Source: Chloroflexota bacterium (GTDB lineage Bacteria > Chloroflexota > Anaerolineae > Anaerolineales > UBA11579). Taken from it: a DNA stretch of 64,000 nt. The translations under genes were made by a program, and so were the position numbers. The notes below the pieces were generated by a model. The model made no database searches, was not told the DNA's origin, and saw only the letters and a list, made by a program, of their open reading frames with translations. Below, in pieces: positions 43,539 to 47,553 of this stretch; within the stretch, counting starts at the first letter, position 1; every line of letters begins with the position of its first letter. The stretch spans positions 62,001-126,000 of the forward strand of contig JABFGG010000005.1 in assembly GCA_013112575.1 (NCBI GenBank), in the 5' to 3' direction.

Positions 43539-43943
43539 TTATTGGCGCAACATTGGGCGGAATTTGTAGCCATAGACCAGCATGCCACGATCTTCTACTG
43601 TAGAGCGCAGTTTACGCGTGACCATCTCAACAGGCATACCGATTTCAACATCATCCAAATCTACATCAGTGAGTTGGGCTGTAATGAGGCTGCCATCATC
43701 AAGCCTGACCATGGCAACGGGATAAGGAGCGAATTCCTGGTAGCCTTCGGGGGCTTCAAAGACGGTTGCAAACGAATAAATTTCACCGGTAATCGTCTCA
43801 GGTTGAGCGACCTGTTCTTCAAGATGGGGTTTGTGCCCGTTGCTGCTGGGGCCAACCACAGCAAGAACAGCCTCTGCCTGGTTTTCTGTTTGCAAGGCGT
43901 AGCGATGTTTCTTCAGTCTCCAATGTCGTGCAATGTCCATCAT
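43539..43943 (-). CDS. DUF35 OB-fold protein lacking the zinc ribbon cysteines
   Basis: The 134-residue protein is the last gene of the mevalonate operon. The OB-fold half is clear: TITGEIYSFATVFEAPEGYQ and YPVAMVRLDDGSLITAQLTD, ending YGYKFRPML. In archaea a DUF35 protein bridges acetoacetyl-CoA thiolase and HMG-CoA synthase in one complex. Normal DUF35 proteins begin with WR..RY.L followed by a four-cysteine zinc ribbon; here the opening ARHWRLKKHRYALQ is preserved, but the next 25 residues contain no Cys, and the whole protein has none. It may serve as a scaffold only. It follows a thiolase-like gene that has itself lost its catalytic residues. Confidence 0.82.
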   Translation of the reverse strand: MMDIARHWRLKKHRYALQTENQAEAVLAVVGPSSNGHKPHLEEQVAQPETITGEIYSFATVFEAPEGYQEFAPYPVAMVRLDDGSLITAQLTDVDLDDVEIGMPVEMVTRKLRSTVEDRGMLVYGYKFRPMLRQ

Positions 43944-44011: not shown

Positions 44012-45181
44012 TTAAGCATCCGAAGGATAACTTTGCAGCACATGAGTGATGGCTGTGGAACCCGGTCCACCCAGGGATTGAATTAGGGCAGTTTTTGCGC
44101 CGGGAACCTGATTGTCACCGGCTTTGTGGCGCAATTGAAGGGTAGCTTCAATCGCCTGGTACACACCGGTAGCCCCTCCGGGGTTGCCACGCGCTTTGAG
44201 ACCGCCAAATGTGGTTACCGGCAATTCCCCATCAATGCCAATGCCACCATTTTGAGCCAGCTGCCAGCCCTGGCCTGCTTCGGCCAACCCGGCTGCTTCC
44301 AACGAAAGGGCGCTGTAGATCGAATAGGCGTCAAACAATTCAAACAAGTCAGCATCTTTAGGCTGGATATCAGCCTGTGCACAGGCACGTTCTACTGAGA
44401 GTCGCGCGGCCTCCAGGTTCAGGGGATTCTCACGATTGTGCAGGGCCAGTTTATCCGTCACCACGCTGGAACCACCGATATAGACCGGAGAGTGTTCAAA
44501 ATCATCCGGCAGCAGATCGGGACGGGTCAATAATAAAGCCGCGGCGCCGTCTGCAGGCGGGGCCACGTCAAACATATTGAGCGGTTCTGCCACCATACCG
44601 GCCCTGGCATAAGTTTCGGGCTTGATGGCACGCTGGAACATGGCATTGGGGTTGCCTGCCCCATTCGCATGGGCATTGACCGCAAAACCTGCAAAGCCGT
44701 CCTGGGGCACATCATACTCGTGCAAATAGCGGCGCATCAGCATAGCAGCCTGGGCAGTCATAGTCAGTCCATGCACTGCTTCAAAATCGGCATCCAGGTT
44801 GGTGGCGAAAGCCGCTTCGGTTTCACCCGGCAACTGGTCGCTGAGCTTCTCAACGCCCAGTACCAGGGCAGCTTCAATGGCCCCGGAGGCCACAGCCAGG
44901 TAAGCAACACGCAAAGCCATAGCGCCAGAGGCGCCCCCCGCTTCGACAGTAGTGGCTTCTACATTCTCCAATCCGGCATAGTCGGCGATCAAGCTGCCCA
45001 ACTGGGACTGACGCGACAGTGTGGCAGCCAGCATATTGCCTACGTAAAGGGCCTCCGGTTGGATACCAGGGGCATCTTTGAGTACGGCTTCAATGGCAGT
45101 CCCGGCCAATTCACGGATAGACATTTCCCAATGCTCCCCCACTCTCGTTTGGCCGATACCGGCAATTACAACTTCATGCAT
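44012..45181 (-). CDS. Archaeal-type thiolase homologue without catalytic residues
   Basis: The 389-residue protein aligns along its length with archaeal acetoacetyl-CoA thiolases: VVIAGIGQTRVGEHWEMSIR, YVGNMLA, LIADYAGLENV, FAVNAHANGAGNPNAMF and FGGLKARGNPGGATGVYQ. The nucleophile Cys of the VEAACASGG motif is Gly here (VEAGGASGAM), the His of the HDAF motif is Phe (ELFDAYS), and the His of GHPxG is Asn (GNPGG). I checked these codons on the DNA. It therefore should not condense acetyl-CoA. It is in the operon with HMG-CoA synthase, 12 bases after that gene, and with DUF35, so it probably keeps a structural role or catalyses something else. Confidence 0.85.
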   Translation of the reverse strand: MHEVVIAGIGQTRVGEHWEMSIRELAGTAIEAVLKDAPGIQPEALYVGNMLAATLSRQSQLGSLIADYAGLENVEATTVEAGGASGAMALRVAYLAVASGAIEAALVLGVEKLSDQLPGETEAAFATNLDADFEAVHGLTMTAQAAMLMRRYLHEYDVPQDGFAGFAVNAHANGAGNPNAMFQRAIKPETYARAGMVAEPLNMFDVAPPADGAAALLLTRPDLLPDDFEHSPVYIGGSSVVTDKLALHNRENPLNLEAARLSVERACAQADIQPKDADLFELFDAYSIYSALSLEAAGLAEAGQGWQLAQNGGIGIDGELPVTTFGGLKARGNPGGATGVYQAIEATLQLRHKAGDNQVPGAKTALIQSLGGPGSTAITHVLQSYPSDA

Positions 45182-45193
45182 CGGTTCAGCTCC

Positions 45194-46261
45194 TTATTTC
45201 ATCACCAGTTTGCCGCGATAACGGGCATAGGTGGCATAGTCGATTTCAGTACGGCGCGATACATAATCTTGTGTTTTGGGCGCTTTGTCACGCCGCGTGA
45301 GGATGTTCTCGGTAACTCGCAAAGCCATGGCATCGGAACCAGCACCGGAACCGAAAGACACCAGCAAAATGCGATCGCCGGGTTCAGCCTCATCCAGGAT
45401 GGCACTCAGGCCGATGATGGCTGCCCCAGAGTATGTGTTGCCGATCTCGGGCACCAGCAAACCGGTCTTAACCTGCTCCGGCTGGAAACCCAATTTGGCG
45501 GCGGCGCGCTGTGGGAATTTTGTATTGGGTTGGTGCACCACGACGAATTTGTAGTCTTCCGGGGTGGTGTTGGTGGCTTCCATCAAGGCGCTTCCGGCCT
45601 GGTGAATGTGCTTGAAGTAAGCCGGTTCACCCGTAAAACGGTTGCCGTGTTCGGGGTACTTTTGATAAGCACGCCGCCAGAAGTCGGGCGTATCCGTTAC
45701 GAATGAGTAGGAAGCCTCTATCACGGCCATAGCTTCTTCAGCAGGGCCGATGATGTAAGCCGCCCCACCCGCACCTGCCGTATATTCCAGGGCATCACCT
45801 GGGCGGCCCTGAGCGGTATCCATACCAATCGCCAGGGCATAATCTGCCATACCCGACCCCACCAGCCCCATGGCTGCCACGATGGCTTCCGTACCGGCCT
45901 TACAAGCAAATTCCCAATCGGCCGCCTGGGTGTTAGGCACGGCACCAATCGCTTCCGCCACGATGGTTGAAGTGGGTTTGACGGCATATGGGTGCGATTC
46001 CGAACCGACCCAAACAGCACGGATGTCCGTCGGTGCAATACCTGCACGCGATAGAGCATTGCGGGCGGCTTCCACCGACATGGTAGCTACATCTTCGTCA
46101 GGCCCCGGCACGGATTTTTCTTTGATGGGCAAACCTGCATTACCACCGGTCCACACCCGCGATACCTCGCTGGCAGGCAAACGGAAACGCGGCACGTAAG
46201 CCCCGTAGCCCACGATCCCAACAGCTCGTTCGGGGATCAACAGATCATTTTGATCAACCAT
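45194..46261 (-). CDS. HMG-CoA synthase, archaeal type
   Basis: The enzyme condenses acetyl-CoA with acetoacetyl-CoA to give HMG-CoA, the committed precursor of isoprenoids. The start at 46261 overlaps the HMG-CoA reductase stop as TAATG, giving 355 residues; the ORF track begins 4 codons earlier. The catalytic Glu lies in [19 protein letters not shown], the Cys in [12 protein letters not shown] and the His in [15 protein letters not shown], all as in archaeal enzymes of about 350 residues rather than the longer bacterial and eukaryotic ones. It lies between the reductase gene and the inactive thiolase gene. With the partner thiolase dead, acetoacetyl-CoA must come from elsewhere. Confidence 0.95.
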
Positions 46262-47553
46262 TATTGGCTCCATTCCTTCATCAATTCTTCGGCGCGGTCG
46301 ATGCGCACAGTTTTTTCATTTACAAGTTGGCTAGCCAGTTTATCCACTTGCTCCCCTTCAGCCCCGGCTGCAATCGCCACCTGACGGGCGTGCAAGCCCA
46401 TGTGGCCGCGTTGGATGCCTTCCGTAGCCAGAGCGCGGATAGCAGCCAGGTTCTGGGCAAGCCCCACGGAGACAATGATCTCGGCCAGTTCGGCCACGGT
46501 GGTGACCTGCATGAGCTTTAGTGCGGCGCGCGCCGTGGGATGTACTTTGGTGGCCCCACCCACAATGCCGACAGCCATAGGCATTTCAAGAGTGCCAACA
46601 AGATTGCCTTCAACATCAGTGCCCCATGTGCTGAGAGAGGTGTACTTACCATCGCGGGCAGCATAGGCATGCGCTCCGGCTTCGATGGCACGCCAGTCAT
46701 TGCCTGTGGCCAACACCACTGCGTCCACACCGTTCATGATGCCTTTATTGTGTGTGGCCGCCCGGTAGGGATCGGCAGCAGCAAAGGCCCAGGCTTCGAT
46801 AATGCCATCACGCACTTCTTCAGCCGTGTAGTCACCAAAGGCCAAGTCTTCTAACGGTACAGTACAACGCACACGTGCCAGACGGCGGTCGGCCAGATTG
46901 GAAAGAATGCGTAAGTGCACGCGCCCACCGGTGATGGCTTCCACCTGGGGGGCCAGGCGTTCACAGGCCGTATTGACGGCATTGGCACCCATGGCATCAC
47001 GCACGTCGTAGATCAGGTGCAGCACCAGGAATGCGCCGATAGGCGAATCTTCAATGATGCGCACTTCCAGGTCGCGCGGCCCGCCACCCAGCTTTTTGAG
47101 GATGGGGTCGATCTCGCCAGCTTCGGCCAGCAATTCAGTCTTCTTTTCCAGGATGGCCAGGCGCGCAGTTGCAGGATCATTCACGTCCAGCAACTGCATT
47201 TGCCCGATCATCTCCGGTTGGCTGGTATGGGCGGTAAAACCGCCGCCAGCCCGGACCAGTTTAGCCATAAATGAGGCCCCAGCAACGACAGAAGGTTCTT
47301 CTACCGCCATGGGCACGAGTACGTCGCTCCCGTTGACCAGGAAGTTAAGGCCAATCCCAAGCGGTAAATTATGGGTACCGACCACATTTTCGATCATGTG
47401 GTCAGCTTGTTCTACATCCAGGCCACCATCACCTGCCAGCGCGCTGAACTCTTCCGGGCTGAGGAGCTTGCCGGGATCCAGTTGGGCGCGGCGTTCTGCA
47501 AAACTAAGCTTGTAGAAACCGGGGCGACGGGAGTTGTATTCAGTATTTGACAT
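46261..47553 (-). CDS. mvaA: HMG-CoA reductase, class II
   Basis: The 430-residue protein converts HMG-CoA to mevalonate. The motifs are those of the class II enzyme known from Pseudomonas mevalonii: the catalytic Glu in [14 protein letters not shown], the cofactor motif [13 protein letters not shown], the Lys in [14 protein letters not shown], the Asp in [17 protein letters not shown] and the His in [12 protein letters not shown]. Class II enzymes occur in bacteria and some archaea and can run in either direction; the coupling with HMG-CoA synthase favours synthesis. It is the first gene of the four-gene operon, and its stop overlaps the synthase start. Confidence 0.96.

Follow-up and report, generated by a model that had tools for sequence, protein, structure and literature searches.

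Why does an operon whose HMG-CoA synthase (HMGS) has intact catalytic motifs retain a thiolase homologue in which all three catalytic positions have been replaced? This question is raised by the gene at positions 44012..45181 (minus strand) of the window, i.e. the whole stretch of 64,000 nucleotides analyzed here, which encodes an archaeal/SCP2-type thiolase homologue of 389 amino acids in a reading frame without internal stop. In the archaeal complex formed by thiolase, HMGS and DUF35 protein (6ESQ), CoA is bound by residues from all three proteins and DUF35 joins the thiolase to HMGS (PMC6392133, PMC12329534). A search of the open-access literature found no paper describing a Cys-less thiolase kept in an HMGS operon.

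The operon and its thiolase homologue

The gene is part of a closely packed operon in the order HMGR-HMGS-thiolase-DUF35, with all genes on the minus strand. The HMG-CoA reductase of class II type (HMGR, 46261..47553; PF00368 at 369.5 bits and TIGR00532 at 418 bits against a cut-off of 260) overlaps by 13 bp with the archaeal-type HMGS (45194..46273; TIGR00748 at 537 bits against a cut-off of 353), a gap of 12 bp separates the latter from the thiolase gene, and a homologue of the DUF35 (OB_ChsH2_C) scaffold with 134 amino acids follows (43539..43943; PF01796 at 67 bits). The adjacency of archaeal-type HMGS, thiolase and DUF35 genes is as expected for genes of an HMGS/thiolase/DUF35 complex, and this order is conserved in most loci across the class. 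The HMGS, described as intact in an earlier note on this DNA, carries the catalytic Glu (SESHP), Cys (EFACKAGT) and His (HQPN) in the window as well as in its relatives. Elsewhere in the same genome, mevalonate kinase adjoins isopentenyl phosphate kinase (L261:1273-3174) and mevalonate-phosphate decarboxylase is located apart (L264:979-2082). Judged by gene content, this genome encodes the isopentenyl phosphate kinase type of mevalonate pathway, which is probably in use, since all three of these genes are present. An antisense open frame of 345 amino acids (44669-45706, plus strand) lies over the thiolase and HMGS genes and is probably a by-product of codon use.

Both thiolase Pfam domains were detected above cut-off in the thiolase homologue (PF00108, 75.8 bits; PF22691, 139.9 bits), and it aligned over its full length with the Pyrococcus thiolase 7yvy and the archaeal thiolase/HMGS complex 6esq. 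In the PDB-chain alignments Gly83, Phe283 and Asn333 face the Cys-Ala-Ser-Gly, His-Asp-Ala-Phe and Gly-His-Pro motifs of 7yvy, respectively, and the same three positions are Cys, His and His in 6esq. The triple replacement that the earlier note had reported was confirmed by reading the codons on the DNA together with the family alignment: codon 83 is GGC (44933..44935, minus strand) at the site of the nucleophilic Cys, codon 283 is TTT (44333..44335, minus strand) at the site of the HDAF His and codon 333 is AAC (44183..44185, minus strand) at the site of the GHP His. The window protein thus has neither the CASG Cys nor the HDAF and GHP His residues of a catalytic archaeal acetoacetyl-CoA thiolase, and its scores are below the curated cut-offs of the archaeal thiolase models NF053570 (313 versus 600 bits) and PRK06064 (377 versus 420 bits). 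Its structure was predicted with a pLDDT of 93.8 and a pTM of 0.94, and the model superposes on 6esq_A with a TM score of 0.95 and an rmsd of 1.5 Å; by prediction, the thiolase fold is retained despite the catalytic loss.

Among solved structures the closest is the Pyrococcus furiosus thiolase PFC_04095 (7YVY, 43-44% identity), which keeps Cys, HDAF and GHP. The thiolase subunit of Methanothermococcus thermolithotrophicus (6ESQ/6ET9) resembles the window protein in its full-length homology (36% identity in the fold alignment, TM 0.94-0.95) and in its HMGS and DUF35 partners, but it has Cys85 and both His residues that the window protein is missing, and the window DUF35 is without zinc ribbon. 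The thiolase-like protein ST0096 of Sulfolobus tokodaii (4YZO) likewise has another residue, Ser, where the Cys would align, while HD and GHP are kept.

Distribution of the Cys loss in the family and the class

A close copy of the gene was present in 22 of the 24 family genomes searched, the window's own included, and the other copies were 61-69% identical to that of the window. In all 22 operon copies Gly replaces the Cys and the GHP His is missing (N, F or Y instead), 21 of them are also without the HDAF His (F or Y, with H in a single copy), and reading frames are open throughout the 22 operons. The shared loss of Cys and GHP His in 22 copies supports the earlier statement that the changes are not frameshift effects and extends it to sequencing error. 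A second archaeal-type thiolase paralogue located off the operon was observed in several family genomes (L067-L074), with Thr, Ser or Met at the Cys position and HDAF and GHP kept.

Across the class, 133 HMGS-linked copies were read, 75 without and 58 with the Cys. Since these were the first entries in a ranking by similarity to the window, with 14 genomes added that were chosen for having no classical thiolase, Cys-less copies are over-represented and 75:58 is not a prevalence; most of the genomes compared are incomplete assemblies. The Cys position was most often occupied by G (39) or D (26) in Cys-less copies, with E in 6, and the HDAF-His position by H (47), F (18), Y (6) or other residues (4). 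Seven Cys-less copies keep both His residues, 40 have also lost the GHP His and 28 have lost both; no case was found among them in which the HDAF His was lost and the GHP His kept. As read from these states, the order of residue loss is Cys, then GHP His, then HDAF His. Two copies (L188 and L191, genomes G087 and G024) keep the Cys with the GHP His replaced by Asn, and their activity is uncertain.

HMGS genes without a following thiolase were present in 15 genomes and mostly located at contig ends; in G155 the thiolase follows HMGS in a split frame, and G136 was the only genome without a thiolase in a longer context. We therefore rejected lone HMGS genes as a sign that the thiolase is dispensable.

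Repeated loss

In a thiolase tree built without the catalytic columns, a clade of 64 rows that includes the window has no Cys at all (SH-aLRT 99), and at least five changes were required for the full set and four for the operon copies only. Other losses fall in other families, as in L194 versus its intact sister L198 and in L148/L157 versus L172 within a three-row group. An independent HMGS tree required at least eight changes and divided the large clade into two groups, of 24 and 38 rows, both entirely Cys-less. The unity of the large Cys-less clade is accordingly not certain; repeated loss of the Cys holds on both trees.

The phenomenon is much wider than could be known to the earlier note: the Cys was lost several times independently within the class, and Thermoplasmata archaea provide a separate case. 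In two Thermoplasmata MAGs, the genes for HMGS and DUF35 are located side by side with that for a thiolase in which Ser replaces the Cys and Asn the GHP His (L044:4953-7552 and L045:4950-7549), the HDAF His being kept in one motif and the other reading HN. Classical thiolases with Cys are encoded elsewhere in the genomes of this pair, which forms a long separate branch. Based on this placement, the two related genomes may represent a further independent loss.

Selection and constraint

Median dN/dS values (Nei-Gojobori) were 0.09-0.14 within Cys-less groups versus 0.06-0.13 within Cys-containing groups, while the ratio of thiolase to HMGS distance was about 1.6-1.8 for Cys-less versus 1.07 for intact copies. 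Cys-less thiolases are under purifying selection, and the constraint is reduced but real; the partial relaxation follows from the distance ratio (1.8 versus 1.07). Of 97 columns that are near-invariant in intact copies, 60 stay near-invariant in Cys-less copies. The most relaxed columns (83, 113, 122-129, 141, 283, 285, 293, 335 and 369) include the catalytic positions, and by analogy with the thiolase fold the remaining ones would line the pocket. The residue Asp recurs at the Cys position in most loss groups, which is not obviously expected under pure drift, although Asp is a good helix N-cap.

With its catalytic motif lost and purifying selection kept, the window protein qualifies as a pseudoenzyme by sequence, from which we infer that it is inactive as a thiolase. 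The comparison with relatives that the earlier note had suggested thus gave loss of Cys and GHP His in 22/22 copies and of the HDAF His in 21/22 under purifying selection. Intact relatives, which would have spoken against a retained function had the window copy been decaying, do exist at about 50% identity, but no decay was found.

Loss of the zinc ribbon in DUF35

In the DUF35 homologue of the window the RHWR segment at the N-terminus and the OB-fold are kept, while all four zinc-ribbon cysteines are lost according to the alignment, a change that the earlier note does not mention; residues 16-52 (43788..43898, minus strand) replace the ribbon segment and contain no Cys. In the predicted model the blocks of the OB-fold between residues 51 and 110 have pLDDT values of 87-95 and residues 12-47 are below 50. 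The window therefore has only the OB-fold of the zinc ribbon plus OB-fold arrangement expected for such a complex; the family relatives read have kept CxxC-x10-CxxC. The other two reading frames of the window gene do not restore a ribbon, and a frameshift was rejected as the cause of its absence. DUF35 structures described up to 2019 had zinc bound in all cases (PMC6996347).

The ribbon was kept in all 60 DUF35 proteins encoded beside intact thiolases and lacking in 11 of 61 beside Cys-less ones. Ribbon-less loci comprise the window, two f38 genomes (L144 and L167) and f23 genomes, and one of the 11 (L154) looks frameshifted. By these alignments, ribbon loss is found in three lineages, that of the window included, and in each case only beside Cys-less thiolases. 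In f23 genomes (L095, L100 and L105) DUF35 appears to be split into two frames, a short RHWR piece and a separate OB-fold piece.

Other thiolases in the same genomes

The genome of the window encodes three classical thiolases in which the motifs of the Cys, the GHP and the C-terminal Cys are intact. All 75 genomes with a Cys-less copy had one or more PF02803 thiolases, so that Cys loss without another thiolase in the genome was not encountered among them, while 20 of the 58 Cys-containing genomes had no PF02803 thiolase and all 20 keep the operon Cys. These 20 include the 14 genomes picked for having no classical thiolase, blind to the state of the operon, which were all Cys-His-His. Fisher's test gave p values of 7e-9 with these 14 genomes and 0.002 without them, although the rows are not independent; a test by independent pairs of loss versus classical thiolase offered only three to four pairs and had no power, and the co-occurrence is phylogenetically clumped. 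Because as many as 260 of 298 genomes in the class have classical thiolases, finding one constrains the reading only weakly, and the strong side of the association is their absence.

Several genomes of the same order that encode a dead operon thiolase and a single classical one (G164, G202, G243 and G271) have the latter of the L003 type, represented by C20:52488 in the genome of the window. Being the sole classical thiolase there, this type is a good candidate for the supplier of acetoacetyl-CoA. The f3 genomes, which seemed to be poor in classical thiolases, have one each, and four of the five read also contain a separate intact archaeal-type copy. At L248-L251 (G253, G243, G202 and G263) the dead operon copy is accompanied by such an intact thiolase away from HMGS. 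These intact copies group with G289 of another family, and by sequence they could be read either as transferred or as retained old copies.

Interpretation

We consider it probable, at about 0.68, that the thiolase homologue is a pseudoenzyme subunit kept for the assembly of HMGS and DUF35 and for their shared CoA site, with acetoacetyl-CoA coming from a classical thiolase. The thiolase subunit of an archaeal-type HMGS/thiolase/DUF35 complex would no longer make acetoacetyl-CoA, while the assembly of HMGS and DUF35 would still depend on it, as would the completion of the CoA site, which lies where the three proteins meet. Acetoacetyl-CoA would be made by a conventional thiolase encoded elsewhere in the genome and taken up by HMGS from solution, and direct channelling would have been given up. 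The presence of a classical thiolase would leave the pocket free to drift, first at the Cys, then at the GHP His and then at the HDAF His, and loss of the DUF35 zinc ribbon would be a later step in some lineages, including that of the window. The scaffold function suggested by the earlier note is supported by the family-wide change under purifying selection, the conserved operon, the predicted fold and the classical thiolase that always accompanies the loss.

We base the pseudoenzyme-subunit reading on the shared CoA site of the archaeal complex and on PhlABC, in which the HMGS-like subunit is without Cys and Glu and a folded complex is believed to require both PhlA and PhlB (PMC6392133). PhlABC (PpATase of Pseudomonas protegens, 5M3K) has the same three-part architecture as that proposed for the window, with one dead thiolase-fold subunit proposed to serve assembly. 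It is at the same time a mirror image: in PhlABC the thiolase-like PhlC is active and the HMGS-like PhlA dead, whereas in the window the catalytic residues are present in HMGS and missing from the thiolase.

Two alternatives appear possible, each with a clearly smaller chance. The Cys-less subunit may have a positive function of its own that was reached repeatedly, as the recurrence of Asp or Gly in place of the Cys and of Asn in place of the GHP His might indicate, and could provide an open HMGS complex that senses or admits free acetoacetyl-CoA. If so, isoprenoid synthesis would be coupled to the acetoacetyl-CoA pool of the classical (beta-oxidation or butyrate-type) thiolases. To a similarly tentative degree the subunit might be regulatory, its empty pocket binding CoA or acetoacetyl-CoA and gating HMGS in isoprenoid feedback. 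The Gly-rich loops, the many near-invariant columns beyond the catalytic trio and the CoA site common to all three subunits of the archaeal complex would fit such a role, but columns of the catalytic pocket drift (within one family a single position may hold F, Y, N or H), unlike those of a conserved ligand site.

A new reaction, also raised in the earlier note, is improbable. It could be an aldol cleavage as in the steroid aldolases Ltp2/Sal (6OK1, 9MYR) or a malonyl-CoA decarboxylation as in ketosynthase-like domains with a Cys-to-Gln change, with the recurrent Asp and the Asn at the GHP His as a new catalytic set. Cys-less thiolase-fold partners of DUF35 do catalyze aldolase reactions (PMC12329534), and one of them, Sal, has Gly in place of the Cys. 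Several separate loss groups show Asp for the Cys, and several show Asn for the GHP His. However, such aldolases need a Tyr/Cys or Tyr/Tyr set (PMC12329534), and the catalytic Tyr of Ltp2/Sal (YDHF/YDCY, together with Tyr or Cys) is Phe in the window (FDAY) and mostly His or Phe in its variable relatives. Gly, Phe and Asn offer no acid or base at the three window positions, and the replacement residues are not conserved within the family (F/Y/H and N/F/Y). The aldolase version was rejected on the absence of the catalytic Tyr, and the new reaction proposed by the earlier note is not supported.

Even less probable is residual thiolase activity through relocated residues, by which the subunit would still be the acetoacetyl-CoA source of the pathway. 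Some copies do keep both His residues (the DHH state), and according to a review (PMC10211241) pseudoenzymes can become active again through residues that have migrated; there is, however, no conserved Cys or other substitute nucleophile among the invariant columns, and the loss was never seen in genomes without any other thiolase. Early gene decay or an assembly artefact, for which only the faster evolution relative to HMGS (about 1.6-1.8 versus 1.07) would speak, was rejected, as was sequencing error, in view of open frames in 22 family operons, an omega near 0.1, the model pLDDT of 93.8 and the recurrence of these changes across many genera and independently assembled genomes.

For the genomes concerned, these results imply that 'acetyl-CoA acetyltransferase' labels on the operon genes are wrong in many cases and would mislead pathway reconstruction. 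The class offers a natural experiment on substrate channelling, in which one three-gene set exists with and without a working first enzyme and the change has been repeated within one bacterial class, apparently also in some Thermoplasmata. This makes it possible to ask whether HMGS depends on the thiolase subunit for its architecture and for CoA binding, as opposed to catalysis, and whether cells are affected by the presence or absence of channelling.
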